From NCBI GenBank assembly GCA_946885645.1, contig CAMPGU010000022.1, positions 1 to 26,041 of the forward strand: a stretch of DNA of 26,041 bases, given 5' to 3'. This document shows positions 1-21,072 of this stretch, piece after piece. This DNA comes from an uncultured Haloferula sp. GTDB taxonomy: Bacteria; Verrucomicrobiota; Verrucomicrobiae; Verrucomicrobiales; Akkermansiaceae. Every line of letters starts with the position of its first letter. Position 1 is the stretch's first letter. The notes under the pieces are model-generated. The model did not search any database and was not told the DNA's origin. It worked only from the letters and a program-made list of their open reading frames with translations. The translations under genes were made by a program, and so were the position numbers.

Positions 1-1086
1 CTTCTCGAGGGTGGTGTCGGGAAAGTCCCGGCCTTCGTCTTTGCCTTTGCCCTCGAAGAGTTCCGCGTGGCGGTAGGCGGCGTAGGCAAGGCGGGCGGTG
101 GCCTTTGAAACGAACCCCTCGTCGAACTCGATGCTTCCCTCGAAATCGAAGCGGTCTTGTACCAGATCGAGCGTATAGTCGCCGTAGAGATCCGTGGCGT
201 CCCCAGGGAAGAAGTAGGGCACTCCGTAAGTGCTATCGTAACGCGAATACGACGCTCCTAGTAGCAAGGGAATCTTTTCGGGCAGGAAGGAAACTCCCGA
301 CGACCAGGATGAACCCTCGTGTCCGGAGTTCGGCAAGGTGCCGTCGGGATTCGGAACCGGTTCGGATTCCCCTGTGGCCGGGTTGTAGACCATCGGGTTT
401 TCCAGCAACTGGTAGGCACCGCTGCGCGCGCGATCGGGAATCGAGATGTCATCCGAGTGCCGCGCCGAACCGGTGAACTGGAAAATGAAAGGGCCGCCGG
501 CGAGCGAAAGATGGCCCGCTCCCGCAATGCCATCGCCATTTGTATCATAGCGGGATTCCCATCCGCCCGCGACCGGCCGGTCGATGCGTTCCCGCGCCAG
601 CACACGGCTGCGGGCATTGACCGCACCGCCGATCGCGGAGTTGCCGTAGAGCAAGGATGCGGGGCCCCGGTGAATCTCCACGCTTTCCATCAGGAAGGGC
701 TCCAAGGCGACTCCGTGGTCGGGACTCACGTCGGAGAGGTCGAAGGTCGAGAGATCGTCACGCAACATCCGGACCCTCACCCCTTCAAAGCCGCGCACCA
801 CGGGACGACTGGCACCGGGTCCGAAATAGCCCGACGATACTCCCGGCTCCCAGCCGATCGTTTCGCCGAGTGTGCCTTGCGCGTTCCTTTGAAGTACCTC
901 TTCGGAAACCGTTTGCACGGTTTGCATGGATGCCGTTCCAAGGGTGGGTGGCGAAGCTTCCGCGGTTACCGTGATTTCCTCCAGTTGCTCGGGGGCCTGT
1001 TCCTCTACCACCAAAGGCTCAAGAACGTCCTGACCTTGGGCGATCAGGGACGATGCGAGGAGGATTGCAGTCGGGAAGGCCTTCAT
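1..1086 (-). CDS. ZnuD-like TonB-dependent outer-membrane receptor (3' part outside window)
   Basis: Outer-membrane beta-barrel receptor, probably importing zinc or a zinc complex with TonB energy. The first 362 codons are present, starting at the ATG on the minus strand at 1086; the reading frame stays open to base 1, so most of the barrel is missing. A signal peptide (MKAFPTAILLASSLIAQGQ) precedes a plug domain with the segments VVRGFEGVRVRML, SDVSPDHG and EIHRGPASLLYGNSAIGG. SPDH followed by RGPxxLLYG, and the later barrel piece SRYDSTYGVPYF, resemble what I recall of the ZnuD subfamily more than siderophore or cobalamin receptors. That is family knowledge from memory, not an alignment. 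It is divergent from the anchor-M gene at 1149 across a 62-bp region holding a palindromic operator, which supports zinc-dependent control. The TonB-receptor call is firm; the substrate is inferred from sequence and neighbours. Confidence 0.8.
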   Translation of the reverse strand, partial: MKAFPTAILLASSLIAQGQDVLEPLVVEEQAPEQLEEITVTAEASPPTLGTASMQTVQTVSEEVLQRNAQGTLGETIGWEPGVSSGYFGPGASRPVVRGFEGVRVRMLRDDLSTFDLSDVSPDHGVALEPFLMESVEIHRGPASLLYGNSAIGGAVNARSRVLARERIDRPVAGGWESRYDTNGDGIAGAGHLSLAGGPFIFQFTGSARHSDDISIPDRARSGAYQLLENPMVYNPATGESEPVPNPDGTLPNSGHEGSSWSSGVSFLPEKIPLLLGASYSRYDSTYGVPYFFPGDATDLYGDYTLDLVQDRFDFEGSIEFDEGFVSKATARLAYAAYRHAELFEGKGKDEGRDFPDTTLEK

Positions 1087-1117
1087 GAAAAATTGTTGCG
1101 AATGGTTTTTGATTGCT

Positions 1118-1136
1118 CTTGCAATAATATTGCAAG
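1118..1136. promoter_or_regulatory. Perfect 19-bp palindrome, candidate Zur/Fur-family operator
   Basis: The sequence cttgcaataatattgcaag is two perfect 9-bp arms around one central base. It is AT-rich in a GC-rich genome and sits in the 62-bp divergent space between the TonB receptor (start 1086) and the anchor-M gene (start 1149), so one bound regulator could control both. Size and symmetry fit Fur-superfamily operators, and the flanking genes point to Zur. No regulator gene lies in the window, so its identity is inference. Confidence 0.55.
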
Positions 1137-1148
1137 AAACAAAATCCC

Positions 1149-2834
1149 GTGAAGCTGATTTACGTCCTTCTATCCGGAGCCGCGGCCGTCAACGGGATGG
1201 CACAGACGCCTCGAACCGATCTCATCTACGGACACTTCGAGTTTCACGTGGACTACGTCCCGACCCCCGGGACCCCGGATGCGGGGTGGCGCTTCGCGGC
1301 TTCCTACGACGAAGATGACGACTTCAGCTCCTCGGACGGCGTAGTGCGGATGACCCCGGCCAACACCGTCTACATCGCCTCTCCCCGGACGCGGACAGCG
1401 GTTCCTTCGCCACCGGGCATTTTTGGCCGTTTCGGCCCTGCCGGAACTCCAATCTGGGTTCTGCCCCAAAATCAGAACCTCGGTTCGCTCTATCTGGGTA
1501 TCCGCACCACCATGCCTGCCGGCACCTTCCAAGCGTCGGTGGGAGGCAACTACACGCCGAGTCCGCAGGGCAGCATTTCCCTGCGCTTGATCTCCGTCGC
1601 TGGCACAGGTCCCGACGCCGGAGGCAAGTTCGCGACGTGGAAGACCGAGAGCGCCGGCACCACCGTGTTCTCTTTCGATACGACCAACGGGATCACCTCC
1701 GCCGACTATATTGACACGATTCCGGTTTCTTCTCACACCCACTATAATTGGGGTTTCACCAAGCCCGGAACCTACGAGGTAACAGTGGAGGCCAAGGGTA
1801 AGCTAATGCCCCTCAACGGAGCGGTGACGTCCGGGCGGGAGACCTTCAAATTCTCCGTGCCTTTCTCATCAAGGATCGGTTCGGGGGGCTCGCTCCGCGT
1901 CGTCGCGGACAATGCCCTCCGGATTGTTGCCGCTGATTTGACGGACTCGGTTGCCTACTCCCCCGATCAGGCAATGCTCGAAACGATCGCCGCCACCGCG
2001 GCCAGCTCGGCACTACCCGGCGCTGTATGGGAGTCCAGCGGGACGATTACTTCCGCGGCTGCCACAATCGCCAACGGCATCGGGGTCGATCCGGCGATTG
2101 CATCCTCCGCACTGCTTCCCGCCGACTGGAGCAATCTCGCTATCGAAGTGCGGTCCGTGGAAGGGCCGGGTAGTTTCGCGTGGATTTCGGATGGCGCTGT
2201 CGTCGCGGATGGACTAGGCGACTCCGTGCCGCTGACCGCCGGGACTACCCGTAACCTGGTCACCGCATTTACGGCGAACGGCCTCTACCGCATCAAAGCA
2301 GTCCTTCATGGAACGAAGCTGGGAAGCGCCGTGAACTCCAGGCCTTTCACTTTGGTCTACGGCGCTGGCATCTCCGCCGATCACAATTATGCGGCATGGC
2401 AATCCAGCTTCGAGCGAGCGGCAGGGCTTACCGCGGGAGCGCTGGCAGATACCGAGGCGGACCACGATCATGACGGTCTGCCCAACGGAGTCGAGTTCGC
2501 CTTCTTCTGGCACGGATTGAATCCCACCGTCAGCGACTCTCCTCTCATGCCGTTGGCAGCGCCTACCCCGGAGGGCTTCGCAGCCATTGACTTCCTGAGG
2601 GATACCTACAAGGACACGCTCGACGAGACCCGCTGGCAGATCCGGCCTTGGGCCAGCACTGACCTTGTGACTTGGGTGCCACGCTCATCGCGTGTTCCCG
2701 GCTTCCCGATGGGGGCGGCCGAAACCGGAGCTGAAAAGGGCAATGCCCACGGCCGCATCATGCTGCGCAGCCTGCGGATCATGCCGTCTCCACAACCCAA
2801 GGCTTTCTTCCGATTTGACGTAACGGGGCCTTGA
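1149..2834 (+). CDS. Secreted choice-of-anchor M domain protein with verrucomicrobial C-terminal module
   Basis: Exported 561-residue protein of unknown exact function, probably cell-surface or periplasmic. It starts at GTG; residues 1-19 (MKLIYVLLSGAAAVNGMAQ) form a signal peptide, and no better start lies nearby. Residues about 25-220 match the choice-of-anchor M pattern: an opening (IYGHFEFHVDY), a central GTPIWVLPQ segment, and the hallmark HTHYNWGFTKPGTYEVTVEA near residues 196-215. That pattern is the short repeat (TIGR03769 type) known in actinobacterial surface proteins encoded beside metal ABC transporters. The C-terminus (DHNYAAW.., DHDHDGLPNGVEFAF, ASTDLVTW) is a divergent copy of the module that also ends the GH97 and beta-strand-repeat proteins further along; no PEP-CTERM tail is present. 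The His- and Asp-rich character fits metal binding, but that is inference. It shares a divergent operator region with the ZnuD-like receptor. Confidence 0.75.
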   Translation: MKLIYVLLSGAAAVNGMAQTPRTDLIYGHFEFHVDYVPTPGTPDAGWRFAASYDEDDDFSSSDGVVRMTPANTVYIASPRTRTAVPSPPGIFGRFGPAGTPIWVLPQNQNLGSLYLGIRTTMPAGTFQASVGGNYTPSPQGSISLRLISVAGTGPDAGGKFATWKTESAGTTVFSFDTTNGITSADYIDTIPVSSHTHYNWGFTKPGTYEVTVEAKGKLMPLNGAVTSGRETFKFSVPFSSRIGSGGSLRVVADNALRIVAADLTDSVAYSPDQAMLETIAATAASSALPGAVWESSGTITSAAATIANGIGVDPAIASSALLPADWSNLAIEVRSVEGPGSFAWISDGAVVADGLGDSVPLTAGTTRNLVTAFTANGLYRIKAVLHGTKLGSAVNSRPFTLVYGAGISADHNYAAWQSSFERAAGLTAGALADTEADHDHDGLPNGVEFAFFWHGLNPTVSDSPLMPLAAPTPEGFAAIDFLRDTYKDTLDETRWQIRPWASTDLVTWVPRSSRVPGFPMGAAETGAEKGNAHGRIMLRSLRIMPSPQPKAFFRFDVTGP

Positions 2835-2848
2835 TGTAATCCGATTGA

Positions 2849-2869
2849 AAATGCATTTAATATGCGTTT
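2849..2869. promoter_or_regulatory. Imperfect palindrome, candidate second Zur-type operator
   Basis: A 21-bp imperfect inverted repeat with arms AAATGCAT and ATGCGTTT (7 of 8 arm positions complementary) lies in the 82-bp gap before the second anchor-M gene. It keeps TGCA and TGC at the same spacing as the perfect palindrome at 1118-1136, and 9 of 19 aligned positions are identical. Two sites of the same layout in front of two genes of the same family suggest shared regulation. The match is imperfect and unproven. Confidence 0.4.
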
Positions 2870-2916
2870 GGGATTGCATCGTTGCTCCGAGCTTTCAAGA
2901 GTCTTCCCGCCACATC

Positions 2917-3636
2917 ATGAAAGCTTCCCGATTTTCCTCTTACCTTACCCTCGCCAGCATCGCCTTGCTGGCGACGGTTCCAGCCAACGCCGCGGTGGTT
3001 TACACCGCAGGACATGCCGATCTCGGTGTCGCTTACGAGGATGGTGCCTTCGATTTCCACTTCCATGGTGAAGGAGCCATCATCGATGGCGTGGAGGTCG
3101 AAGATCAGGAGTATGCGGCTTCCGATGTCATCATCCATGCGAGCGCTACATCCATGCTGGTGCTGCCGGAGGGATTCGACATGCCAGCCTTGGGTAGATC
3201 GGCCGGGGATACGATCTGGGTGTTGCCTTGGACGCAGGAGGATGGACTTCCCTTCCTCGGCACCGCGTCGGAAGAACTGAACCCGTCGGACTGGGTGGGA
3301 GGTATCACCTTCACCCTCGGTAACGTGACATCTTCAAGCGGCACCGGCGAATTCGCCCTGTGGCGCTATGGTGTCTCCGGCGATGTGACTCTGGACATCT
3401 CCTCGCTAACAGGTCCGGACTCGGTGATCACCCAGACGGGCAGCCACGATCATTTCAACTGGGGCTTCACCGAGCCCGGCACTTGGACCATCGAACTGAC
3501 CGCGAGCGGACAACACGTCACCGATGGTTTGATCACCGCGACGGAGACCTTTACTTTCCAGATCGTCCCCGAACCATCGTCTGCTTTGCTGGGCGGCTTG
3601 GGCATCGTCGGGCTGCTCGTTCGCCGCCGCCGCTGA
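2917..3636 (+). CDS. Choice-of-anchor M domain protein with PEP-CTERM sorting tail
   Basis: Exported 239-residue protein. The frame is open from 2845, but the start at 2917 gives a clean signal peptide (MKASRFSSYLTLASIALLATVPANA), so I use it. The body opens with TAGHADLGVAYEDGAFDFHF, contains GDTIWVLPWTQEDGLPFLG and the hallmark HDHFNWGFTEPGTWTIELTA, and therefore consists of one choice-of-anchor M domain parallel to the N-terminal half of the upstream protein. It ends with VPEPSSALLGGLGIVGLLV followed by RRRR, a textbook PEP-CTERM signal recognised by exosortase/archaeosortase-type transpeptidases; no exosortase gene is in the window. The many His and Asp residues suggest metal capture near the envelope, but this is inference. 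Position and domain type tie it to the zinc island, and the palindrome at 2849-2869 may control it. Confidence 0.8.
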   Translation: MKASRFSSYLTLASIALLATVPANAAVVYTAGHADLGVAYEDGAFDFHFHGEGAIIDGVEVEDQEYAASDVIIHASATSMLVLPEGFDMPALGRSAGDTIWVLPWTQEDGLPFLGTASEELNPSDWVGGITFTLGNVTSSSGTGEFALWRYGVSGDVTLDISSLTGPDSVITQTGSHDHFNWGFTEPGTWTIELTASGQHVTDGLITATETFTFQIVPEPSSALLGGLGIVGLLVRRRR

Positions 3637-4478
3637 GATGTCCTCTTCCCCGACATGCACAGCCTCGCGGATCGGGGGATTGATGAGGGATGCCACTGCC
3701 GGGCTCAGGCAGGAGATGTTCTTCCTCGGCATGGATGTGGTACATCCTTCCGGCAATCTTTTGGTTCGGGGTGGCTTCGAGCGAAGTCCCTCGAACGGGC
3801 TTCAAGGGACGAGTTGCTACGGACTGCCGTGGCAGGGTGGCCGTATCGAGCTTCATGGTGCATGTGCGGGTTGGTATCCTGACGACGGCAGCACCGGTTT
3901 CGTCTACATACGGCCTCTCGGGAGATGCCTGCCGTGGGTTCACGGGAAGCCTCCGGTTCCGGGCGAATGGTCGGTCGGAATCGGCCGGTCACCCAGTCCC
4001 TCGGCACTTTGGGAAACAGGCCTCCCGTTCTTTTCATGGTGGCTCTCCTGGGAGCAGCAGATCCTTCGATTGGGCGGGAGGGACTACCGGACCTCATGCT
4101 ATCGAACCTTTAAGAAACTTCCGAAGTCAAAAGCATGGTTGCCCCCTGAAGCGGCCATCGACTGGCTCGGCCGTTTCCTTGCCGATCCGGCGGGTCTGGC
4201 TCGTTCAAGCCGATTCCTCGCCTGAAAGATGCCCTCCGAACCCTGTCGCCGGGTAACTTCACGGTTTGGTCGCAATGGCCGCGCGAAACGATGCAACACT
4301 CAGAATTCCACCGCTCGGCCGGCGGTTGATCGGCGCCGATGCGCCGATGCGCCGGAGTCGCCGCGTCCGTCTTGGGACTTCGACATCGGGATCACGCACA
4401 TCGGCCTGCGCGTGCGCGTGAGAGCTTCCCCGATTCCCGGGTGAATCCAACTCCTCCGGGTCGAATGACATTTATCCC
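3637..4478. other. 842-bp stretch with no convincing gene
   Basis: Several overlapping open frames exist on both strands (for example 3638-4225 and 3690-4256 plus; 3705-4097 minus), but none has a recognisable domain, a signal peptide or a clear advantage over the others. Their composition (Arg/Pro/Ser/Gly-rich) looks like out-of-frame GC-rich DNA. Small hairpins occur, such as GGATGT-GGT-ACATCC at 3733-3747. The operon promoter before 4479 must lie near its right end, but I cannot point to -35/-10 boxes or a Zur-type palindrome. A degraded gene or a dispersed repeat is possible. Confidence 0.5.
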
Positions 4479-5816
4479 ATGAATCACAAACTACCCGTCA
4501 CCGTCCTCACCGGATTCCTCGGCTCAGGAAAAACCACCCTTCTCAACCGCATCCTCACCGAAAACCACGGCCTGCGCATCGCGGTGATCGAGAACGAATT
4601 CGGCGAGGTCGGCATCGACCACGAACTCGTCATCAATGCCGATGAGGAGATCTTCGAGATGAACAATGGCTGCATCTGCTGCACCGTACGCGGCGACCTT
4701 ATCCGCATCATCGGCAGCTTGATGAAGCGCCGCGAGCAGTTCGACCACATCCTCATCGAGACCACCGGCCTCGCTGATCCCGGCCCGGTGATTCAGACCT
4801 TCTTTGTCGATGATGACATGAAGGAAAAACTCACCCTCAACGCCATCGTCGCCCTCGTCGATGCCCGCCACATACCGCTTCATCTCGACTCCAGCGAGGA
4901 GGCCGTCAAACAAATCGCGTTCGCCGATTCCATCCTTCTCAACAAAACCGATCTCGTCACCCCGGCCGATCTGGACGCCCTCGAAGCACGCATCAAGAGC
5001 ATCAACGGCGTCGCCCGTCTCCAGCGCTGCCAAAACTCGAACGTCCCGATTGCCAGCGTGCTCGACATCGGCGGCTTCAATCTCGACCGCGCCATCGGCA
5101 TCGACCCGCGTTTCCTTGATCCCGAATATCCCTTCGAATGGGGCGGTATCTTCGATGCTCCGGCCGGCACCCTCAAGCTGGAAGCCTCCGAAAACCCGGA
5201 CCCATCCATGACCGCCGTCATCCTTCCCGTTCCGGGTACGGATGAGGGGTCGCTTGCCATCGCCCGCGAGGCCGCCGTCCGCGCCTTCTCCCATCCCGCC
5301 CGCGAAGCACCCTCCGGCTCGGTCATGACAGCCGATGGTTCACCCTACGATCTTATCCTCACCGAAGACCCCATGAGCTGGACCTGCGCAGTCGATTCGC
5401 CGGGACCGCTCGCCATCTTCACCCAACACTACCCGGAAGAGCTCGGGCTGCGTTTTCTATCGGACTCAGGCGAACTCCAGCCCGTCCGAGCCGCTTCCTA
5501 CAAGCCGGATCACACCCACGATGAAGCCGTCAGCTCGGTCGGTATCGAGGCGGATGGAGAGTGCGACGAGAAAAAACTCAATGCCTGGCTCTCCAAACTT
5601 CTCCGCGAGCGCGGCACCGACATCTACCGCATGAAAGGCGTCTTTGCCATCAAGGGCGATCCGAACCGCTTCATCTTCCAAGGCGTCCACATGCTGCTGG
5701 ATCCCGCCGACGGCGGCCCATGGGGAGACAAGCCGCGCCGCACCAGCCTCGTCTTCATCGGCCGCGATCTCGACCGCGATGAACTCAACCAATCCTTCCG
5801 CAAATGCCTCGTCTGA
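4479..5816 (+). CDS. COG0523 (CobW/ZigA-like) metallochaperone GTPase with intact CxCC
   Basis: Cytosolic G3E-family GTPase of 445 residues, predicted to deliver zinc to client enzymes. Visible motifs are the P-loop GFLGSGKTT (residues 12-20), the metal-binding [13 protein letters not shown] with Cys65, Cys67 and Cys68, the Walker-B-like ETTGLADP (about 94-101) and the nucleotide motif NKTD (155-158). The CobW C-terminal domain includes [21 protein letters not shown]. It is longer than the 300-400 residues usual for the family because of an extra segment around residues 225-350 between the G domain and CobW_C; that segment ends near HTHDE. It opens the plus-strand operon and overlaps the WD40 gene by 13 bp. 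Operon partners are a ZnuABC-type transporter and two more COG0523 genes, so zinc is much more likely than cobalt for cobalamin. No clear Shine-Dalgarno site precedes it. Confidence 0.9.
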
Positions 5817-6901
5817 CAAACGCCGATGACCTGGCGGATGAGGAGATTGACATCCGCTCCGCCGCAAAGCTCCTTCCTCAGACCTCGAGCGAAGAGCTCG
5901 ATGACTACGCGCTCGACCTACGGTGGTCGCCTGACGGCCGGCATCTCGCCGCCCTGCCCAGCACCGGAAAGCCGAAAATCATCGATCTGAAGAAGGGTGG
6001 GTTCCTCGAAGTCCCTGCTCACCGCGGTGGCAATGGCAGCATCGCCTGGAGCCCGGATGGTGCCTTGCTCGCCATCTTCGGCCAGGATGGCATCCTCCGC
6101 CTCCACGATCCGGTCACCGGCGCTTCGCGCGAAAACCAGCTCCCTCGCGGATGGGCCGAGCGCTGCGCTTGGAACGCCGACGGCTCCCTCATCGCCGCCG
6201 CCATCGGCCGCACCGTGCAGGTCATGGATGCTGCCACGCTTGAACCTCTGCACCTCATCGATGGCCACAGCTCGACCGTGACCGACTTCGTGTGGCACCC
6301 TGTGTTGCCGGATCAACTCGCTACCGCCAGCGACGGCGGGGCGCGGATGTGGCGGCTCGGCCAAAAAGAGCCTTTCGCCCGCATCGACGATGGCGTGGCG
6401 GCCGTGCTCACCACCTGGAGCCCGGACGGCCGCTGGGTGGTCACGAGCGACCAGACGCCCTCGGTGCATCTCTTCGACACGAAAAGACGCGCTCCACTCT
6501 ATATCCAGGGCTTCGAGGCCAAGATCAAAGCCTTCGCCTGGCAGACCGGAGGTGCTCCCGACCTGCCTTGGCTCGCCCTCGGGGGAGGCTCTGTGATCAC
6601 CGTATGGCTATGCTTCGGCAAGAACGGCCCGCGCGGTGCGAAGCCGCTGCAACTCTTCGGTCACCCGGGCGAAGTCACCGCATTGGATTTCCCGAAGGAC
6701 GGCCCCTATCTCGCCTCCGGCGGACGCGACGGCTTTGTCCTCCTCTGGCTCCCTCATCACTCGGACGGCCCCGCCCTGATCGCGCGAGAGGATAAGGAAA
6801 TCACCACTGTCCGCTGGTCGCCCGACGGTCTCCAGCTTGCCTCTGGCACCGTCTCCGGCCGTATCGCGGTCCACACGCTCCGTGATCAAACACAACCATG
6901 A
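5804..6901 (+). CDS. Cytosolic WD40-repeat (beta-propeller) protein of the zinc operon
   Basis: A 365-residue protein with no signal peptide or membrane segment. About seven to eight repeat units are visible, with anchors such as [69 protein letters not shown] and [13 protein letters not shown], enough for one closed propeller. An acidic N-terminal tail (residues 1-35) precedes it. WD40 propellers usually act as interaction platforms; no enzyme motif is seen. The start overlaps the end of the upstream GTPase by 13 bp, and the stop overlaps the ZnuA start (ATGA), implying translational coupling. A cytosolic scaffold linking the GTPase to the transporter or to client metalloenzymes is a reasonable inference, not shown by the sequence. 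Confidence 0.85.
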
Positions 6902-7812
6902 AACGTCGCCACTTCCTGCTCATCCCGTTGATCGCTCTGCTCGGCGCATGCAAGCCGGCGGCTGATTCCAAAACATCCAATGCCGCGAAAAAACCACGCG
7001 TCCTCGCCACCTTCCTGCCCGTCCATGCCCACGCCTCCGCCATCGCCGGAGACCGCGCGATCGTGGAATCGATTGTCGCGGGTGATGTCGGCGCCCACGA
7101 TTTCTCGCCACGCCCCGCGGACATGGACCGAATCGCCAAGGCCGATGTCCTCGTCTTCAACGGCGCGGGCATGGAACCGTGGCTCGCTGATCTGATCAGC
7201 CAGGCCGCAAAGAAGGATCTGAAGAAAGTCGATCTTTCCACCGGCATCGACCTCATTCCCAGCCCGCCCGCTTTCGGCACGGCCGATCCGCATGCGGGCG
7301 AGCCGAACCCACACCTCTGGCTCGATCCCGTGATCGCCATGCATCAGGTGGAAACCCTCCGCGACGCCCTCTGCGCCGCCGATCCGGATGGCACCGCGAC
7401 CTATCGGAAGAACGCCGCGGCCTACCTTGTCCGACTACGGGAACTGGATGCCGATTTCCAGCGCATCCTCGGCCCGCTGCCATCGAAAAAGCTGGTCACC
7501 TTCCACGATGCCTTTCCCTACCTCGCGAAACGTTACGGCCTCGCATCCATTGGCTACATCTCCGAGTTCCCCGAGCGTGACCCGGCACCGGCGGAGTTGG
7601 CCGCGCTCATCGACCGCATCCGCGCCGCAGGGGTGAAAGTTCTCTTCGCCGAGACCGGATACGAGCCGGCCCTGCTCCAGCGCGTCGCCACCGAATCCGG
7701 GGCCAAGGTTTCCACACTCGACACCCTGGAAGTCGGACACGGAGGACCGGACGCCTATCTCACAGGTATGCGGAAAAACCTCGAAGCCCTGCGCGCCGCC
7801 TTCGCCCCATGA
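6898..7812 (+). CDS. znuA: ZnuA/TroA-type metal ABC transporter substrate-binding lipoprotein
   Basis: High-affinity metal-binding lipoprotein of 304 residues delivering Zn(II), or less likely Mn(II), to the inner-membrane transporter. The signal peptide [18 protein letters not shown] ends in a lipobox with the acylated Cys18. Candidate metal ligands of the cluster A-I fold are the VHAHA segment (His43/His45), His67 in GAHDFSPRP or His139 in NPHLWLDP, His203 in TFHDAFPYL and Asp275 in STLDTLE. The long His-rich loop of classical proteobacterial ZnuA is absent; only a short DPHAGEPNPH remains, so affinity may differ. It overlaps the WD40 gene and the ATPase gene by 4 bp each. The zinc assignment rests mainly on the COG0523 and ZnuD-like neighbours, since sequence alone cannot separate Zn from Mn. 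Confidence 0.88.
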   Translation: MKRRHFLLIPLIALLGACKPAADSKTSNAAKKPRVLATFLPVHAHASAIAGDRAIVESIVAGDVGAHDFSPRPADMDRIAKADVLVFNGAGMEPWLADLISQAAKKDLKKVDLSTGIDLIPSPPAFGTADPHAGEPNPHLWLDPVIAMHQVETLRDALCAADPDGTATYRKNAAAYLVRLRELDADFQRILGPLPSKKLVTFHDAFPYLAKRYGLASIGYISEFPERDPAPAELAALIDRIRAAGVKVLFAETGYEPALLQRVATESGAKVSTLDTLEVGHGGPDAYLTGMRKNLEALRAAFAP

Positions 7813-8456
7813 CTTCCCATATCCCACTGCTCGAAGCCCGCTCCCTCACCTTGCGCCACGGCACCCGCGAGGTCCTTGGTGATTTTTCCTGCGCGATCCA
7901 TCGCGGGGAAATCATGGGCATCAGCGGTCCCAATGGCGCGGGCAAGTCCACCTTGCTAAAGGCCTTCGCTGGCATTCACCAACCCCGCTCGGGCACCATC
8001 CGCCGCCCGACGAAGAAACCCGGCTACGTCCCGCAACACGCACCCATCGACCGGAACTTCCCGCTCACTGCCTCCGAGTTCCTCGCCATCAACTGTCACA
8101 GCCGCATCCCAACGATGGGCGGCATTCCGCGCAAACAGCGCCATGGCATCTGCGGGAAGCTCGACTGCCTCGGCGTCTCCCACCTCGCCGCCCGCCCGCT
8201 CGACTCCCTCTCCGGAGGAGAGCTTCAGCGCGTTCGCATCGCCGCCGCGCTGCTCGATGACCCGACGCTGCTGTTGTTGGACGAGCCCTCCAGCCATCTG
8301 GATCCCGCCGCCTCCACAAGCCTGAAGGAGCTGCTGCTTCACCTCCACCAGGAACATCACCTCACGCTGGTGGTCGTTTCCCACGACGAATCCTTCCTCG
8401 ACGGCCTGGCAACCCAACGGATTGCGCTTGGAACTCCGCTGCTCGCGGTCGCCTGA
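7809..8456 (+). CDS. znuC: ZnuC-type metal ABC transporter ATP-binding protein
   Basis: ATPase subunit (215 residues) energising metal import at the cytoplasmic face of the inner membrane. Motifs in order are Walker A GPNGAGKST (residues 40-48), Q-loop YVPQ with Gln76, signature LSGGELQ (134-140) followed by RVRIA, Walker B LLLLDEP with Asp158 and Glu159, and the switch His192 in VVVSHDE. The PGYVPQHAPIDRNFPLTASEF stretch is typical of the manganese/zinc/iron chelate ATPase family. It is at the short end for the family and lacks the C-terminal extension of enterobacterial ZnuC. It overlaps znuA by 4 bp and is followed by the permease after 9 bp. Confidence 0.92.
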   Translation: MTSHIPLLEARSLTLRHGTREVLGDFSCAIHRGEIMGISGPNGAGKSTLLKAFAGIHQPRSGTIRRPTKKPGYVPQHAPIDRNFPLTASEFLAINCHSRIPTMGGIPRKQRHGICGKLDCLGVSHLAARPLDSLSGGELQRVRIAAALLDDPTLLLLDEPSSHLDPAASTSLKELLLHLHQEHHLTLVVVSHDESFLDGLATQRIALGTPLLAVA

Positions 8457-8465
8457 CCAACCGCC

Positions 8466-9305
8466 ATGCATCTCATCGAACTGTTCCGCCACGATTTCAT
8501 GCGCCATGCTCTGATCTCCGGACTGCTGTTGGGTCCGGTGTGCGCCTTGCTCGGCGTGTTCGTGAACCTGCGGGGGATGGCATTCTTCAGCGATGCGCTG
8601 GCCCACTCCGCGCTGACCGGCGTGGCACTCGGATTCATGATCGATGCCTGGACCGGCTGGAAACTCGATCCCTCGGTTTATGTCCTGATTTTCTCCTGCC
8701 TGCTCGCGCTGGGCATGGGCTGGCTGTCCCAGCGCACACCGCTTTCACGGGACACCATCACCGCCTTCACCTTCACCGGCAGTGTCGCCCTCGGGGTGAT
8801 CCTCATCTCCCTGCTTGGGAGACACCGGATGCTCGAAGGCCTGCTCTTCGGCAGCATCTACTCCAACGGCCCCGCGGACATCGCCCGCCAGGCCGTGCTC
8901 GCCGCGGTCGTTCTCCTGTTTTTCCTCACCCAGCTCCGCCCGCTCACGCTCGCCACGCTGGACCCTGAACTCGCCCGCGCCCGCGGGATCCATCCGGCGC
9001 TACTTCACTACGGATTCTCGCTCCTCGTCGCCGCCACCGTCGCCGTCGGTTTGAAGATGCTCGGCGCGCTTCTTCTCAGCGCGCTCATCGTCATGCCTGC
9101 CGCCGCCGCGCGGGTCGCCTCCAGCGGCTTCCGCGGACTCATTGGCGGAGCCTTGTTGCTGGGCCTTCTCGCGCCTCCCGTTGGCATCACTGCCTCCGCC
9201 GCCCTCAATCTGCCTACCGGCCCCTGCATCGTGCTGGTCCACGTGGCCGCGCTCGCACTCTGCCAGATGATTCATCTCATCCGCCCGCTAAGAATCCTCA
9301 CATGA
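8466..9305 (+). CDS. znuB: ZnuB-type metal ABC transporter permease
   Basis: Inner-membrane permease of 279 residues from the ABC-3 (ZnuB/TroC) family. About eight hydrophobic helices are visible. The conserved N-terminal segment MRHALISGLLLGPVCALLGV is followed by FFSDALAHSALTGVALGF, the usual region after the first helices, and the C-terminal half carries KMLGALLLSALIVMPAAAA, a hallmark of the family. It starts 9 bp after the ATPase and overlaps the next gene by 4 bp. A homodimer would form the channel with two ZnuC subunits. Confidence 0.92.
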   Translation: MHLIELFRHDFMRHALISGLLLGPVCALLGVFVNLRGMAFFSDALAHSALTGVALGFMIDAWTGWKLDPSVYVLIFSCLLALGMGWLSQRTPLSRDTITAFTFTGSVALGVILISLLGRHRMLEGLLFGSIYSNGPADIARQAVLAAVVLLFFLTQLRPLTLATLDPELARARGIHPALLHYGFSLLVAATVAVGLKMLGALLLSALIVMPAAAARVASSGFRGLIGGALLLGLLAPPVGITASAALNLPTGPCIVLVHVAALALCQMIHLIRPLRILT

Positions 9306-9715
9306 CCACGTCCCCGGATCCTGCCTCAATCCTTGCCGCAGCCCGTTCTGTTAGTGAACGCTGGCTGGCTGCGGTCAACAACCGCGACCTCGAGACATTG
9401 CTCTCACTTTATGCTATGAGCAGCGTGCTGCTACCTACGTTTTCCCCGCACATCATCCGCGAAGATGTTCGCCGCCGGGAATACTTCACCCGTCTATCGC
9501 AACGACCCGGCCTAACGGTCTCACTGCACGAAAAGACCTTCACTGCGCAGGCCGTCGGCCAAGTAGCCGTGGCCAGCGGCATCTACTGCTTTCGTTTCGA
9601 AATCGACGGTGAACCTTACGCGTTCGAGGCAAGGTTCACCTTCGTGATCGATCCGCAGTCGGAGCGTCCCATCGTTCATCACCACTCCTCGCAGATCCCG
9701 CGCACCATGGAGTGA
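9302..9715 (+). CDS. NTF2-like (SgcJ/EcaC, CaMKII-association-type) small protein
   Basis: A 137-residue cytosolic protein with the layout of an NTF2-like cone fold: an N-terminal helix (AAARSVSERWLAAVNNRDLE), a middle ILPTF-like segment (SVLLPTFSPHIIR), and C-terminal strands ending PIVHHHSSQIP. The HHHSS strand is the family's usual ending in the SgcJ/EcaC and CaMKII-association groups. No signal peptide is present. Start and stop overlap the permease and the next GTPase by 4 bp each, so it is embedded in the zinc operon. Family members often have no known function; the triple His could bind metal here, which is inference. Confidence 0.75.
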   Translation: MTTSPDPASILAAARSVSERWLAAVNNRDLETLLSLYAMSSVLLPTFSPHIIREDVRRREYFTRLSQRPGLTVSLHEKTFTAQAVGQVAVASGIYCFRFEIDGEPYAFEARFTFVIDPQSERPIVHHHSSQIPRTME

Positions 9716-10725
9716 TCGCACCGTACTTCGACTCATCCGAGAGCTATCCATCGGCCATGCCGACACCGCACATGACCCCGTCCTCCGACCGCATCCCCAT
9801 CCTCATCGTCGCCGGTTTCCTCGGTGCCGGGAAAACCACCTTCATCCGCGACCTCCTGCCGCGACTCGCGAACGTACCGCGCGCGCCCTACGTGATCCTC
9901 AACGATTTTCTCAACGCCGCCATCGACGCATTCACCCTGAAGGGCCTCGGTGCGGAAATCAAAGGCCTCGTCGCCGGTTGTGTCTGCTGCGATGACTCGG
10001 ACAGCCTCATCGACGCGATCCTGCGCGTGCCGATTTCCATCCGCCCGCTCGTCATCATCGAGGCAAACGGCACCACCGATCCTTTCCGCCTCATCGAGAC
10101 CCTCACGCTCACCGCTTCCCTGCGCGAGGTCATTGGCCCCATTCTCCAGGTGACCGCCATCAACGAAGCCCGCTGGGCGAAACGGCAGCTCCCAGCCGAC
10201 AAAGAGATCGAGCGCGCCCAAGTCCGCACCGCCAGCGCCATTCTCACCAATCGCGGCGAGTTCGCCACCGACCAACAGAAACAACGGCTGCGCGACGACT
10301 TGCTGGAACTCAATCCCCGCGCACCCCGGCTCGATGCCGAGACATTCGTCGAACTCCTGCTGCGCGAAACCGCCGCCGACATTCTGCCCGCGCCAGACAC
10401 CAGCGATCCCATCCCTCACGGACACCACCACGTGGCTGTGCATGTGGAGCCTCCTGCCATCAGCGAGGACCGCCTGCGCCAATGGCTGCTCGGTCTTCCC
10501 CGTGACATCCTCCGGGTCAAGGGACTCGCCCGCCTGTCCGAAACGGAAATGGCCTACTTCAATCGTACTGACGACCCTTTTGAATCCCCCCGCATCATCA
10601 AGGTGAGAGCCCAGGAGGGCATGAAACCGGCGGCCGTCTTCATCGGCCCCGGCCTCCGCGAGGAATTCCTCCGTGCCTCTTTCCGTGAAGCCTCCGTGCC
10701 GCGTCCTTTCAAGCTCACCCTCTGA
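9712..10725 (+). CDS. COG0523 GTPase, second copy: CxCC kept, NKxD lost
   Basis: G3E-family protein of 337 residues with P-loop GFLGAGKTT (residues 35-43), metal motif GCVCCDD (Cys90, Cys92, Cys93) and IIEANGTTDP (115-124), where the usual ETTG is altered to EANG. The guanine-specificity motif NKxD is not recognisable; the matching place reads ILTNRGEF (177-184), so nucleotide preference may be relaxed. A short His cluster, PHGHHHVAVH (235-244), precedes a compact C-terminal domain (ILRVKGLARL). The GTG at 9712 overlaps the preceding stop (GTGA); ATGs at 9757 and 9772 are alternatives and would trim a poorly conserved N-terminal tail. It closes the overlapping operon and probably works with the transporter in zinc allocation. 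Confidence 0.85.
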   Translation: MIAPYFDSSESYPSAMPTPHMTPSSDRIPILIVAGFLGAGKTTFIRDLLPRLANVPRAPYVILNDFLNAAIDAFTLKGLGAEIKGLVAGCVCCDDSDSLIDAILRVPISIRPLVIIEANGTTDPFRLIETLTLTASLREVIGPILQVTAINEARWAKRQLPADKEIERAQVRTASAILTNRGEFATDQQKQRLRDDLLELNPRAPRLDAETFVELLLRETAADILPAPDTSDPIPHGHHHVAVHVEPPAISEDRLRQWLLGLPRDILRVKGLARLSETEMAYFNRTDDPFESPRIIKVRAQEGMKPAAVFIGPGLREEFLRASFREASVPRPFKLTL

Positions 10726-10782
10726 ACTTCCGCAACCCGCGCCTGTGAATTCGCCCGTGCTCCCATCCGAGAATCTTCATTC

Positions 10783-11916
10783 ATGAAAGTCACCCTGATC
10801 ACCGGCTTCCTGGGAGCGGGGAAGACCACCTTTCTGGGACGCTTGATCCGGGAACACGGGGCCGGACGAAACTTTGGCGTGATCGTCAACGATCTGAGCG
10901 AACTGGAAGTGGACGGGGAGTTGCTGCGCGAAGGCCATCGCGTTTCCGAAAAACAAGGAACCCTGATCAGTCTGTTCAACGGATCGATCTCTTCGAGCCG
11001 AAGCGCTGATTTCTCCCAAGCTGTTGGCCGGATGAACGATAATGGGATCGAACACGTCTTCGTGGAGACCTCCGGTGGGTCACATCCCATCAGCGTGATC
11101 AACGAGCTGAGGAACACTGCCGGCGTCACTCTTGGAGCTGTCGCCACCCTCGTGGATGCAAGGGCGCTCTATCATGACTATGACGGGGGCATCGGATTGA
11201 TGCGGCTCCTCGCCCGCACGGAGGAAACCGGCGGGTATGGAGCAGAGAACCTCTTGGCGGAGCAGGTCAAGGCCGCAACGGTCGTGGTCCTGACCAAGAT
11301 CGACCTCGTGCCGGATGATGTTCTCCCGGTCATTTTCAAATCCATCGCGGTTTTGAATCCGTCGGCGACCTTGGTCGCTTGTGCCTACGGTAAGATCGAC
11401 CCGGCAATCCTACTTGACGCTCCGGCCTGCCGTCCCCGGCCGCAGGAGTTGTCGGAGGCGAGGGATGTCCCGGAGATCATTCCGGTGGTGATCCGGGACC
11501 GAAGGCCGCTTCATCCGCAACGGTTCATGGAACTTTATCAGCAGCATCTGACCCTTGGCGTCTATCGCACCAAGGGCTTCATCTGGCTGGCAAGCCGGCC
11601 GGACCACGTGCTCCTGTGGAATCAGGCAGGTGGTGCCATGGGATTGGAACTTCTCGCGGTCTGGCGCGCTCATATTCTCGAAGCTGACGGTCGCCTGCTA
11701 GCGGAAGAGCGCGAACTTTTGCGGTCGCGCATGAGTGACCTGGACCCTGACTTCGGAGACCGGTCGTGTGAGGTGACGATCATTGGCAACGCTCCGGAGG
11801 TTGAGACCTTCGCCGCCAGGTTCCGCAACTGCTTCTGCACGGACGATGAAATCGCTCCCTGGAAGTCCGGTGGAGCATTCGAGGATCCATGGCCCAGGAA
11901 TCTAAAAACCATATAG
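10783..11916 (+). CDS. COG0523 GTPase, third copy: metal motif changed to SxSS
   Basis: G3E-family protein of 377 residues with P-loop GFLGAGKTT (residues 8-16), VETSGGSHP (94-102) and TKID (171-174) in place of NKxD. Where the family has GCxCC, this one reads FNGSISSSRSADF, so all three metal-binding Cys are Ser (68, 70, 71). The rest of the fold is well kept: VATLVDAR, the C-terminal GVYRTKGFIWLASRPD, and a final CFCTDDEIAPWKSG..EDPWP like the YciC/ZagA branch. Two Cys in that tail (NCFC) are the only paired thiols. It starts 57 bp after the second GTPase and is probably co-transcribed, though it may have its own promoter. A GTPase that senses or regulates rather than carries metal, or one that replaces the thiol chaperone in zinc starvation, are possible roles. 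Confidence 0.88.
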   Translation: MKVTLITGFLGAGKTTFLGRLIREHGAGRNFGVIVNDLSELEVDGELLREGHRVSEKQGTLISLFNGSISSSRSADFSQAVGRMNDNGIEHVFVETSGGSHPISVINELRNTAGVTLGAVATLVDARALYHDYDGGIGLMRLLARTEETGGYGAENLLAEQVKAATVVVLTKIDLVPDDVLPVIFKSIAVLNPSATLVACAYGKIDPAILLDAPACRPRPQELSEARDVPEIIPVVIRDRRPLHPQRFMELYQQHLTLGVYRTKGFIWLASRPDHVLLWNQAGGAMGLELLAVWRAHILEADGRLLAEERELLRSRMSDLDPDFGDRSCEVTIIGNAPEVETFAARFRNCFCTDDEIAPWKSGGAFEDPWPRNLKTI

Positions 11917-12565: not shown

Positions 12566-15526
12566 CTATGGAGTCCTCACCCGGACGAAGAACGTGGCAT
12601 CGGTCGGAGGCGAGGACAAGGTGACCGGCACGGTTTCGACCTCACCGTCAGGGATTGGAATACCCTCGGTGGCACCGGTGTCCTCGGTCCAGGCCACCAG
12701 GTCAGAGGATGTCCAGACGCTGTAGACGAGTCCGGTCATGCTTTGCAGGCGGCGGGTGTAGCTGAAGGTGCCGGCGGCCTTGTTGAGCGGGATGGTGATC
12801 GGGTTGATCGAGGACCCTCCGGTGGGATCGAGGCCGAAGGCATATTCCTCGTGATTGGTGAGGCCGTCCTTGTCGTCGTCATTGTTTTCGTCACCCGTCA
12901 CGCCGTTGGCGGATTTCCAAGTATCGTAGTCGTCAATGGCTGGCAGGATTTCCACGATCTGGAAGCCGGCGATGCCGCCATTGCCTGCGGCATGGACCGT
13001 GATGTTCTTGCTGGAACCGCTGAGATTGGCGAAGCGGGCGTAGGTGGCGGCGGCGTTGACGGGCAGGTCGTTGGTTTCAGTCGCCTGGATGAATACGGCG
13101 TTGTCGCCGCTGATCGCGCCGCTGCCGTAGGTGCGGAAATGGAATGTGCCGACTCCATCGGTCACGTAGCCCTCGCGGTCCGACATGTCGGCGCTGAGGT
13201 AAACGTAGATAACGTAATTGGCGTAGGGAATTTCCGACAGGGTGAGTGTCTGGGGATTGCCGCCGGACATGTCCACATAGCTCTTGAGCAATCTTTTGTT
13301 GTAGGAGCCGTCGAGGTCCCGGGCGGGCGACGTGTTCAGCGGGTTGAGCTGCCATTGGGCGCTGTGGCTGAAATGGATGTCGAGCGGGCTGGCGGAGCCG
13401 CTGTTGTCCTTGATGCTGGTGGCCGGGTCGCCGGCGGTGGGCGGCGAAGTCCGGGCAGGATAGGAATTGTTCCAGTGCGCGGCGGGAACCACCCCAGCTT
13501 GGGAGAACCCATCGCTGGGAATGGTGCCAAAGTAGTCCCAGTGGTAGCTGATGATGCCGGGCTGGGCCGGGATGGCGACCGGCCGGAGGGTGGCGGCGAA
13601 GCCTCCGGTATTTTCCATGCGGATGTGGATCGTCTCGCCGCGCGTGAACACGCGGGTCTGTTCGGCGAGGGAGGTCGGTTCCTGGTTGGACTGCGGAGTG
13701 TCGCCGTAGGTGGTCAGGGTGTAATTTCCATCGCCGAGGAAATCCAGGTTGAGATCGAGTTCCAGCGGTTGTTGCAAGTTCATGCCGGCGATCCACCAGG
13801 AATCGCCTTTGCGGCGTGCCTGGACGAGATGGGTCATCAAGCCGGACGACAGCACGCGGGTCGTGTCCCAGGTGCTGGGGAGCTTGCGGAAGAAGTTGAG
13901 ACCGGGCTCTTCCCGATAGTTTGCCGGGGCATCGCCCAGGCAGAGGTAGGGCGAGTCGATCAGCATCGCGAAAGCCAGGTGTCGGGCGCGGGTGCCGGTG
14001 ACCGTGGAGGGAACCGAGTTAGGGACGAATTGGTCAGCCCGGACATTGAGGAAGCCGCCCGGCGTGACGTCGGCAGATCCTAGCAGCCCGCGGGTGAAGG
14101 GCAGCCGCACCATTTGCTCCGGCGTGAAGGCTTGGCCGAGCTTGACGTATTCGGCTCCAAGCACGCCTTCCTGAGTGAGCACGTTCGGCCAGGTGCGCGA
14201 CAGACCGGTGGGCGTGTGAACGCCATGGAAATCCACCACCAACAGATGGTTGGCGGCGGCGGCGGCCAGTTCCTCCATCCACTTTTGGGTTCCCTGCGAG
14301 CCGTTGTTCTGGAAGAAGTCGATTTTCACCCCGGCGGCCCCCCATTGCTTGTAGGTGGCGAACAAGGTGTTTGCCCCGATCGACGGGATGTTCTTCGAGT
14401 TCACCCAGAGGATCAATTTCACGCCTTTCGACGCGGCGTGGGCCATGAGGGCCGGCATGTCGATGTGGGACAATGCCTTGATGGCGGTTTGCGGATCGCT
14501 GCTGTCCTGGTCATACCAGAACCAGTCGATGAGCATGTAGGGCCAGCCCATCTCGGCGGCGAAGTCGATGTAATCCTTGTGGGACTGGGTGTTGCCGCGG
14601 GCGTAGAGACCGTTGTGCTGGGTCCAGTATGGATTGTTGCCGGTCCACCACACGTCCCAGGCGGAGATGCCGGGCTTGATCCAGGAGGTGTCGGCGATCT
14701 GTGAGGGCGTGGCCAGGTTGAGCAGAAACGTGGAGGTTGTGAGAGCACCCGCATTCCGGGCGATGAGCAGCGTGTGCCAGGCGGACGCGCGCGGAGTTTG
14801 GGAATTCACTTGGGAAACCAGCGAGGCTTTGGCTCCGAAGACACCGGGCTGTCCGGTCGAGACAAGCATGGAGCTGGACCAGTCGCGCGCGTCGGCCTCG
14901 GCCACCGCAACCAAGGCATTTGGCGCCTCGACGACCAGCGGCAGGATGCGGTGGCCGGCGGGCATCTGGCTGAGGTGGATTTCGGGATACAAACACTCCG
15001 CATCGGAGCCGCCGCCAATCCAAGCGCGGTGATCACCGGTGAAGAGAAACTCGGTGAGGTTCTCGGTCACGGTGACGGCTGACGGCACGGTCGGTCGGGG
15101 CAGGACATAGCGCAGGGCCACGCCATCGTCATAGGCGCGGACGAGCACCTCGAATTCCATCGGAGCGGCAGGAATTGGGCGCGGCTCGCGCAGGCGGACG
15201 CGCAGCTCGCGGAAGTGGTCGCGCACCGTGGAGAATTTTCCGAAGCTGTTGTTCCAGGTTGTGTCGTTGAGGCGCAGGTCCGCTTCAAGGACTTCCGGCT
15301 GTTGCCCCAGGCGCGTGCCGTCGGAAAGAACGAGGCCAAGCTGCGATGGCACCACCAGGGCGGCACCATCCAGTTGTACGGCGTAGTTGAGTCCGCCGCT
15401 TGTTCCCACGAAAACGGAGATGCTGCCGTCCGGCGAGGTCAAGACGGGGATATCCACCGCCTTGGCTGCCGTATGAAGGAAGAGGGCCGCGGCGATGATC
15501 AGGGCGAGCGGGTGGAGCAGTCTCAT
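12566..15526 (-). CDS. Secreted GH97 glycoside hydrolase with C-terminal accessory domain and sorting-like module
   Basis: Exported 986-residue enzyme, probably an alpha-galactosidase or alpha-glucosidase acting on alpha-linked sugars outside the cytoplasm. The ATG at 15526 begins a signal peptide (MRLLHPLALIIAAALFLHTA); an in-frame GTG or ATG farther upstream would only add six residues. Domains in order: GH97 N-terminal beta-sandwich (about 30-280), (beta/alpha)8 barrel (about 285-560) with AWDVWWTGNNPYW, GVKIDFFQ (Asp403, candidate nucleophile of the retaining type) and LTQEGVLGAEY (Glu453, candidate acid/base), and a GH97 C-terminal sheet to about 650. From about 658 it carries an extra ISYHWDYFGT domain shared with the next two genes, and from about 865 the module YDTWKSANGV..DDDKDGLTNHEEYAFGLDP. 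Typical GH97 enzymes are 630-700 residues, so about 300 residues are added. Family assignment is firm; substrate is not. Confidence 0.9.
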   Translation of the reverse strand: MRLLHPLALIIAAALFLHTAAKAVDIPVLTSPDGSISVFVGTSGGLNYAVQLDGAALVVPSQLGLVLSDGTRLGQQPEVLEADLRLNDTTWNNSFGKFSTVRDHFRELRVRLREPRPIPAAPMEFEVLVRAYDDGVALRYVLPRPTVPSAVTVTENLTEFLFTGDHRAWIGGGSDAECLYPEIHLSQMPAGHRILPLVVEAPNALVAVAEADARDWSSSMLVSTGQPGVFGAKASLVSQVNSQTPRASAWHTLLIARNAGALTTSTFLLNLATPSQIADTSWIKPGISAWDVWWTGNNPYWTQHNGLYARGNTQSHKDYIDFAAEMGWPYMLIDWFWYDQDSSDPQTAIKALSHIDMPALMAHAASKGVKLILWVNSKNIPSIGANTLFATYKQWGAAGVKIDFFQNNGSQGTQKWMEELAAAAANHLLVVDFHGVHTPTGLSRTWPNVLTQEGVLGAEYVKLGQAFTPEQMVRLPFTRGLLGSADVTPGGFLNVRADQFVPNSVPSTVTGTRARHLAFAMLIDSPYLCLGDAPANYREEPGLNFFRKLPSTWDTTRVLSSGLMTHLVQARRKGDSWWIAGMNLQQPLELDLNLDFLGDGNYTLTTYGDTPQSNQEPTSLAEQTRVFTRGETIHIRMENTGGFAATLRPVAIPAQPGIISYHWDYFGTIPSDGFSQAGVVPAAHWNNSYPARTSPPTAGDPATSIKDNSGSASPLDIHFSHSAQWQLNPLNTSPARDLDGSYNKRLLKSYVDMSGGNPQTLTLSEIPYANYVIYVYLSADMSDREGYVTDGVGTFHFRTYGSGAISGDNAVFIQATETNDLPVNAAATYARFANLSGSSKNITVHAAGNGGIAGFQIVEILPAIDDYDTWKSANGVTGDENNDDDKDGLTNHEEYAFGLDPTGGSSINPITIPLNKAAGTFSYTRRLQSMTGLVYSVWTSSDLVAWTEDTGATEGIPIPDGEVETVPVTLSSPPTDATFFVRVRTP
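12731..12817. repeat. 87-bp perfect repeat, copy 1 (in GH97 C-terminal module)
   Basis: These 87 bases are identical to 16603-16689, and similarity continues to about 12935 with scattered mismatches. Both copies encode the same part of the C-terminal module on the minus strand. Synonymous sites are also identical here, pointing to recent duplication or gene conversion. Confidence 0.85.
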
Positions 15527-15559
15527 GTGAAGCAGGGAATACAATCGAATTACAAAATA

Positions 15560-15610: not shown

Positions 15611-16363
15611 TCAGCGGCGGCGACGGAACAGGGCCAGCATTCCAAGACCGCCGAGAAGCGCTGCGGAGGGCTCCGGGACCTGTACCACCTGGATGCCGGC
15701 GATACCGCCATTTCCCGCCGCAAAAACACTCAAACTCTGGCTGGATCCGGTTAGGTTGGAGAACCGGGCGTAGGTGGCCGCAGCGTTGGTGCCGAAGTCG
15801 CTGGTTTCGGTGGACTGGATGAACACAGCGTTGTCGCCGCTGATCGCGTCACTGCCGTAGGTGCTGAAGAAGAAGGTGCTGGCTGTATCCGTCACATAAC
15901 CTTCGCGGCCCGATGTATCGGAACTCATGTAAATGTAGATGTCGTATTGGGCGTAGGGGATCTCGGCGAGGCTGATCGTCACCGGGTTGCCTCCCACCAT
16001 GTCCACGTAGCCTTTGAGCAAGCTTTTGTTGTAAGTTCCATCCACGTCCTGAGGCACGCCAGTCCAAAAGGGAGCGAGGTGCCACTGGCCGGTGCCGCTG
16101 AAATGGATGTCCATGGTGGTTCCATTGCCGCTGTCGTCGATCAGGTTGAGCTCAGGGCTACCGACCGTGGGCGGAGTAGTCGATGCGCCTGTCCCATCGT
16201 AGGAATTATTCCAATTTGCGGCGGACACGACGCCAGCAAGTGAAGTCGAGTTCGTGGGAATCGTGCCGTAATAGTCCCAGTTGTAGCTGATCACCGCCGA
16301 GTGGGCGCAGGTGAGCTGCGCGAGCAGCGAGGCGGACAGGACGAATAGAGTTTTTTGGTTCAT
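15611..16363 (-). CDS. PEP-CTERM protein made of one ISYNWDYYGT domain
   Basis: Exported 250-residue protein. The signal peptide is MNQKTLFVLSASLLAQLTCAHS. The body (about 24-225) is one beta-rich domain beginning VISYNWDYYGTIPTNST and including AANWNNSYDG, DIHFSGTGQWHLAPFW, GTYNKSLLKGYVDM, EIPYAQYDIYIYMSSDTSGR, SGDNAVFIQSTETSD and NGGIAGIQVV. The tail VPEPSAALLGGLGMLALF plus RRRR is a PEP-CTERM signal. The same domain sits in the GH97 protein and in the beta-strand-repeat protein on either side, with long stretches of similar DNA. The function is unknown; sugar or polymer binding outside the cell is suggested by its fusion to GH97. A terminator follows at 15560-15585. Confidence 0.85.
   Translation of the reverse strand: MNQKTLFVLSASLLAQLTCAHSAVISYNWDYYGTIPTNSTSLAGVVSAANWNNSYDGTGASTTPPTVGSPELNLIDDSGNGTTMDIHFSGTGQWHLAPFWTGVPQDVDGTYNKSLLKGYVDMVGGNPVTISLAEIPYAQYDIYIYMSSDTSGREGYVTDTASTFFFSTYGSDAISGDNAVFIQSTETSDFGTNAAATYARFSNLTGSSQSLSVFAAGNGGIAGIQVVQVPEPSAALLGGLGMLALFRRRR

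Positions 16364-18889: not shown

Positions 18890-21072
<2,183 letters not shown>

Follow-up and report, generated by a model that had tools for sequence, protein, structure and literature searches.

We analysed a stretch of 26,041 nucleotides, here called the window, from contig CAMPGU010000022.1 of an uncultured Haloferula sp. (Verrucomicrobiota). Its first 11,916 positions hold an island of genes whose probable role is to take up zinc when it is scarce. Its outer half comprises a candidate operator for the Fur-family repressor Zur (the box), the gene for a ZnuD-like outer-membrane receptor, and the genes for two secreted choice-of-anchor M (anchor-M) proteins, AM1 and AM2; its inner half comprises a ZnuABC-type transporter, COG0523 GTPases, a WD40 protein and the product of an uncharacterised open reading frame (ORF), ORF4. 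We put the probability that the two halves together form a zinc-starvation island at roughly 70%. The initial annotation had drawn the genes of this island from the letters alone, and ORFs together with profile searches against NCBIfam and Pfam place them where it did (Table 1).

The receptor and AM1 genes lie head to head across a gap of 62 base pairs (bp), and this arrangement recurs in relatives of the window organism, in which all our genome-wide counts were made. NF038134, the anchor-M model, is carried by 27 of the 387 Verrucomicrobiota genomes of our phylum sample (25 above cut-off), and AM1 has matches in 26 of the 195 genomes of our family sample; the closest relatives with an organism name come from Luteolibacter sp. 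Populi (77% identity for AM1, 73% for AM2). Twenty-five loci, the window counted, encode the AM1 type with its C-terminal module, each with an adjoining second anchor-M match (weaker in locus L178), and a ZnuD-like receptor stands divergently in front of AM1 in all 22 that have enough contig, the other three (L182, L184, L188) being left out because the contig stops within ~350 bp of the AM1 frame. Anchor-M genes are indeed linked to genes for zinc chaperones and for regulators of the Fur family: under a simple length model that treats the 27 phylum genomes as independent, seven have a COG0523 gene no more than 6 kb from an anchor-M gene (0.23 expected, P 1.5e-9), and four have a fur-family gene no more than 2 kb away (0.11 expected, P 4e-6); in the family set fur-family genes occur near the module in L176, L183, L184 and L185 (PF01475, 61–70 bits).

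That the receptor is ZnuD-like, as first annotated, holds up. The fragment in the window has a Plug domain (69.3 bits), and its top NCBIfam model is ZnuD (NF038289, 115.6 bits); the same model ranks first for all four full-length relatives (234, 213, 219 and 151 bits, with runners-up at 104, 103, 99 and 123), and the sole PDB match, at E up to 1e-10, of the relative scoring 234 bits (L172, 4771–6969) is the ZnuD zinc piracy receptor itself (4rdr, E 8.6e-29), likewise a TonB-dependent receptor. All of these scores, 115.6 bits for the cut protein and 151–234 for the full-length relatives, stay below the exception-level cut-off of 950 bits, so that we name the receptor ZnuD-like only, zinc being its putative substrate by likeness.

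The palindrome between the two genes also speaks for zinc control. Its 17-bp form, at up to three mismatches, occurs once in the window against 0.01 expected by shuffle. Among 8,192 inverted repeats (5-bp arms, 2–9-bp spacers) counted upstream of anchor-M genes in 53 loci, with no prior motif used, though this one had already been noticed in the window, TGCAA-N5-TTGCA ranks first, with 13 sites inside and 10 outside (p 2.2e-10; 8.3e-5 for the second-ranked motif). At up to one mismatch the box is found 41 times in 56 kb upstream and 50 times in 812 kb elsewhere, against 0 and 12 for the reversed pattern. It precedes AM1 at up to one mismatch in 20 of the 25 loci (exactly in 7), has two mismatches in L075, L097, L175 and L178, and is absent at up to two in L092; boxes are often paired, 24–60 bp apart.

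Exact sites number 46 in 16 genomes, against 7 for the reversed control, and 15 of them precede zinc-type genes. These comprise znuA and a COG0523 gene (both in genome G162), a COG0523-WD40-znuABC operon (G486) and a fur-family gene (G408), in one genome each; a phosphoribosyl-AMP cyclohydrolase (HisI) gene followed by COG0523 (G001); an ORF4-COG0523 pair with two sites (G408); and the promoters of anchor-M or receptor genes, with eight more sites. A further test, on 40 of 60 ZnuA matches, made no use of anchor-M: the box at up to one mismatch was present at seven znuA promoters (two exact), all ~95–150 bp before the domain start, where eight control repeats gave 0–3 sites. The promoter of zepA, the gene of an extracellular zinc protein discussed below, in G432 (Luteolibacter yonseiensis-type) holds a 33-bp perfect palindrome whose 15-bp core, TGCAATAATATTGCA, is letter-identical to that of the window, and an anchor-M frame (NF038134, 61.2 bits) starts ~0.55 kb past this box on the other side. 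The identity ties the window promoter to what is very likely the Zur site already proposed, and a box common to some znuA, COG0523 and zepA promoters links the anchor-M proteins to zinc control. A Fur-family-type inverted repeat common to other zinc genes, the mark of a Zur regulon, was found for the outer half only, and to judge from these letters the promoter of the receptor and AM1-AM2 is probably Zur-controlled.

Two further settings of the box deserve mention. In L140 (G001:C35:46000-61000) the exact site at 12435 precedes the cyclohydrolase gene (NF000768, 137.9 bits, above cut-off) and then two COG0523 genes, with two additional COG0523 genes within the same 15 kb. Fur-family genes, too, have boxes in front of them or, where znuA is the neighbour, in the space between the two (L183 at 9131, L185 at 7442, L077 at 8158, L073 at 3584), which suggests self-control of the regulator.

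The anchor-M assignment of both proteins, likewise made before any profile search, is borne out by scores above cut-off with both models: 93.3 bits for AM1 and 95.0 for AM2 with NF038134 (cut-off 55), 55.7 and 41.6 with TIGR03769 (cut-off 30.9). Both start with a Sec-type signal peptide by eye, and their tails are as first described. AM2 ends in a PEP-CTERM segment above cut-off in NCBIfam (17.6 bits, cut-off 16) and in Pfam (PF07589, 23.1 bits, cut-off 20.7), and exosortase is present in nine of ten AM1 genomes tested, all of them genomes of relatives. AM1 does carry the verrucomicrobial C-terminal module: its residues 413–526 match the C-terminus of the window protein at 12566–15544, and its residues 400–520 that of the protein at 16438–18966 (29 and 32% identity). 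These two, with a third at 15611–16363, all on the minus strand, are adjacent secreted-type proteins with a common domain at 59–71% identity; two of the three share a C-terminal module (81.5%) distantly related to the AM1 C-terminus.

Do these proteins bind zinc? In AM2, H33 is kept in 57 of 60 sequences, D35 in 59, and H177 and H179 in all 60; 141 residues separate the HxD from the HxH pair, in agreement with the motif of the actinobacterial proteins ZnuE, ZnuF and ZnuG, which brackets ~150 residues. The HxE/HxH residues of AM1 are invariant in 39 of 39 sequences and agree with that motif in part. Structures were predicted with a mean local confidence (pLDDT) of 92.6 for AM1 and 92.1 for AM2. 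A close known system is that of ZnuE/F/G and CmrA/CmrA2 with ZnuABC in Corynebacterium diphtheriae (PMC12445094; PMC6711530). Its secreted proteins have an HxD and an HxH motif with ~150 residues between them, are linked to an ABC transporter of the ZnuA type and are repressed by zinc and Zur; zrg, a gene for a GTP-binding protein, is in the same regulon. Table 1 of PMC6711530 uses the label 'anchored repeat', and PMC12445094 reports that ZnuE/F/G bind zinc in a thermal assay and that ZnuE is required for growth in low zinc. From their conserved zinc-type pocket and their presumed kinship to ZnuE/F/G, which we draw from the names of the shared profiles and from the motif, AM1 and AM2 are predicted to be zinc binders. 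The settings differ: the corynebacterial proteins sit in the wall of a Gram-positive cell, anchored by sortase or by unknown means, and there is no TonB receptor, whereas here a ZnuD-like outer-membrane receptor lies divergently, the tails are of PEP-CTERM or verrucomicrobial-module type, and AM1 has HxE.

The profiles also uphold the identities first given to the inner half, namely ZnuABC, three COG0523 GTPases, a WD40 protein and an NTF2-like protein. The run from COG0523-1 to COG0523-3 (4479–11916) is packed, with overlaps at five of seven junctions in the ORF list. For the transporter proteins the top NCBIfam models are AztC, AztA and AztB at 188, 157 and 161 bits, below their cut-offs of 350, 220 and 280; the Znu equivalog models are below cut-off as well (ZnuA 109 of 268, ZnuC 120 of 306, ZnuB 116 of 284), and the binding protein belongs to PF01297. 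The COG0523 domains are those of PF02492 and PF07683, and CxCC is present in GTPases 1 and 2; Haas 2009 gives this motif as common to all COG0523 members (PMC2770081), and GTPase 3, with GSISS in its place, is therefore named COG0523-like. It belongs to a COG0523-like subfamily that no longer has the metal motif but is still found next to zinc genes: GSISS recurs in L140 (3821–5038) and L097 (11797–12972), and no CxCC-type pattern was found in L089, L173 and L174. The same source describes subfamily 5 clusters of COG0523 with WD40 and znuABC genes, some downstream of a predicted Zur site; the window shares this clustering, COG0523-1 being likened to subfamily 5 by gene order, and adds ORF4 in front, two more COG0523 genes and the NTF2-like gene. 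The WD40 protein keeps its place in L189 and L274, and the NTF2-like protein has no match in the operon copies of those two loci.

Genes at the corresponding position in L174 and L173 share 60% and 59% identity with ORF4, and another nine loci contain matches, of which one is a fragment; ORF4 has no NCBIfam match, a Pfam match below cut-off only, and no PDB relative. It is found in 68 of the 195 family genomes, against 26 for AM1. In its best 20 loci, some of which are near-copies of one another, COG0523 lies within the 1.5-kb flank in 12, anchor-M in 4, and a box 42–131 bp before the match in 11, against 0–2 for eight control repeats. In L274 it heads an ORF4-COG0523-WD40-ZnuA-ZnuC-ZnuB-COG0523-COG0523 run, the window order minus the NTF2-like gene, with no box there at up to one mismatch. 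By eye the protein has no signal peptide, and its Trp, His and Cys positions are kept. We propose that ORF4 may act in the cytoplasm, under zinc control, either as a partner of COG0523 or as its client.

A route for zinc can be sketched from these parts. A zinc-loaded Fur-family repressor, presumably Zur, would sit on the palindrome and block both sides, so that zinc shortage would release the receptor gene leftwards and AM1-AM2 rightwards. AM1 and AM2 would be exported by Sec, and their tails would hold them in the envelope or on it, AM2 via exosortase and AM1 via its verrucomicrobial module. Each would bind zinc in the HxD(E)/HxH pocket of a single beta-sandwich domain, concentrating surface zinc and perhaps delivering it either to the receptor or, on the inner side of the outer membrane, to ZnuA. 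Import would then fall to ZnuCB together with the ZnuA(AztC)-like lipoprotein, and the COG0523 GTPases, with the WD40 protein and ORF4, might direct the zinc to client proteins.

ZepA (All3515) is, according to PMC10957091, an extracellular PEP-CTERM protein with a histidine zinc site under Zur control; its authors call the way in which it delivers zinc unknown, but lean towards a hand-over to a receptor in the outer membrane, which they think plausible. AM2 shares the PEP-CTERM tail, and its neighbour in L172 and L175 belongs to the all3515/ZepA family (NF040463; P0136 of L. flavescens, 231 bits, cut-off 75). The protein lists for AM1 and ZepA have 11 contigs in common against 0.2 expected, contigs being equated by equal base count; on one of 5,321,988 bases the two genes are ~632 kb apart. 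The window itself yielded no ZepA. Outside the tail, AM2 has no sequence similarity to ZepA; AM2 as a ZepA was rejected, with no NF040463 match at E 0.1 and an hhalign probability of 5.6 after tail removal. In L097 a further PEP-CTERM protein with an HxxHYH motif (13067–13786) follows AM1-AM2-COG0523; it reaches only 28 bits with the ZepA model and is perhaps another type of zinc exoprotein. Tentatively, and with the odds somewhat against it, one might go further and see a Gram-negative relay in which the envelope anchor-M pair loads the ZnuD-like receptor, interchangeably with ZepA or in addition to it, under one verrucomicrobial Zur operator, with ORF4 as a new COG0523 partner or client in the Zur regulon.

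Several observations weigh against a zinc-starvation island. Many of the loci compared are from close relatives, so that counts are not independent. Only one of the 27 phylum genomes has ZnuA no more than 6 kb from an anchor-M gene (0.24 expected, P 0.21), which is not above chance; of the co-occurrence that the initial annotation had envisaged, the part concerning COG0523 is supported and the part concerning ZnuABC is not, such neighbourhoods being sporadic (the window, G486 at L189, and G221 at 5.5 kb). At 33 of the 40 znuA promoters there is no box at up to one mismatch, as one might see if genomes had an additional ZnuA-type gene not devoted to zinc. Within the window no box at up to two mismatches occurs at 3600–4500, before COG0523-1, so that its ORF4/ZnuABC operon may be controlled otherwise; the same COG0523-WD40-znuABC operon in L189 has an exact box. 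Neighbours were annotated for 35 of the 46 exact sites, and 20 of these 35 have no evident zinc gene, many lying within frames. The window holds no convincing fur-family gene, one weak match opposite the ZnuA-ZnuC strand being taken as chance. AM1 has HxE in place of HxD, and the AM2 fold has no clear PDB match.

Might AM1 and AM2 instead be buffers or stores that sequester surface zinc, whether as protection from its toxicity or as a reserve, with the receptor not fed? PMC12445094 reports that deletion of znuF/znuG restored growth of a C. diphtheriae znuAECB mutant, that over-expression limited growth, and that a triple His-to-Ala ZnuE mutant still shifted with zinc, so that sequestration or storage rather than delivery is possible, and the chance-level linkage to ZnuA points the same way. 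We nevertheless consider this unlikely: the strict divergent pairing with the receptor and the starvation-type box fit uptake better, as does the need for ZnuE in low zinc. More doubtful still is an island for another metal or for haem, with a receptor of that type and a box that serves Fur or Mur in the control of iron or manganese. The site presumably resembles manganese and iron boxes of other groups, ZnuA-family proteins can carry manganese, most znuA promoters tested are without the box, and models of haem receptors match the receptor as well (TIGR01785, 103.8 bits in L172); against this stand the ranking of ZnuD as top model and, for the one relative tested, as sole PDB match, and the presence of the box before the zinc-linked zepA, COG0523 and cyclohydrolase genes. 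A chance meeting of a zinc operon with a pair of adhesins, suggested by the number and diversity of PEP-CTERM and anchor-M proteins and by the pilus adhesin lectin domains among the middling beta-sandwich matches of AM2, is very improbable given the conserved zinc-type pocket, the divergent receptor, the box enrichment and the co-location with zepA, COG0523 and fur-family genes.

Table 1. Features of the zinc island in the window (aa, amino acids).
Feature	Position	Strand	Evidence or remark
TonB-dependent outer-membrane receptor, ZnuD-like; N-terminal 362 aa, truncated at the edge of the window	1..1086	-	PF07715, NF038289
Perfect 21-bp palindrome TCTTGCAATAATATTGCAAGA, Zur-like operator candidate	1117..1137		core TGCAA-N5-TTGCA at 1120-1134
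AM1, secreted choice-of-anchor M protein, 561 aa, verrucomicrobial C-terminal module	1149..2834	+	NF038134, TIGR03769
AM2, secreted choice-of-anchor M protein, 239 aa, PEP-CTERM tail	2917..3636	+	NF038134, TIGR03769, PEP-CTERM
ORF4, uncharacterised conserved protein, 195 aa	3638..4225	+	conservation in relatives
COG0523 GTPase 1, CxCC = GCICC	4479..5816	+	PF02492 200.8 bits, PF07683 91.4 bits
WD40 beta-propeller protein	5804..6901	+	PF00400 99.6 bits; no signal peptide by eye
ZnuA/AztC-like zinc-binding protein, lipobox by eye	6898..7812	+	PF01297 249.9 bits; AztC model 188 bits
ZnuC/AztA-like ATPase	7809..8456	+	NF040873 156.7 bits
ZnuB/AztB-like permease	8466..9305	+	NF040871 160.5 bits
NTF2-like protein	9302..9715	+	PF08332 37.8 bits, PF13474 29.8 bits, PF14534; all above cut-off
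COG0523 GTPase 2, CxCC = GCVCC	9712..10725	+	PF02492 87.0 bits
COG0523-like GTPase 3, GSISS in place of CxCC	10783..11916	+	PF02492 110.1 bits

Elsewhere in the window, and from translation only, the minus strand appears to encode a serine/threonine kinase after a small sigma-factor-like ORF (18890–21238 and 21073–21633) and a RegB/RegA-like pair of sensor kinase and response regulator (23067–24826).

Zinc binding of the ZnuE/F/G type in an actinobacterium, clusters of COG0523 subfamily 5 with WD40 and znuABC, and ZepA with its box are already known; the receptor-coupled anchor-M module, the box across the regulon and ORF4 look new. In the open-access literature, searched but not exhaustively, we found nothing on anchor-M proteins in Gram-negative bacteria or on their coupling to a TonB receptor, and nothing on TGCAA-N5-TTGCA as a regulon-wide signal in Verrucomicrobiota. 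How zinc passes the outer membrane and how zinc TonB receptors are fed is an open question, for which this locus supplies a concrete pair: a ZnuD-like receptor and, encoded divergently from it, secreted proteins of a zinc type, which in two genomes also have zepA beside them. Moreover, the box makes parts of the zinc regulon of Verrucomicrobiota readable, and it already flags one unnamed protein family.

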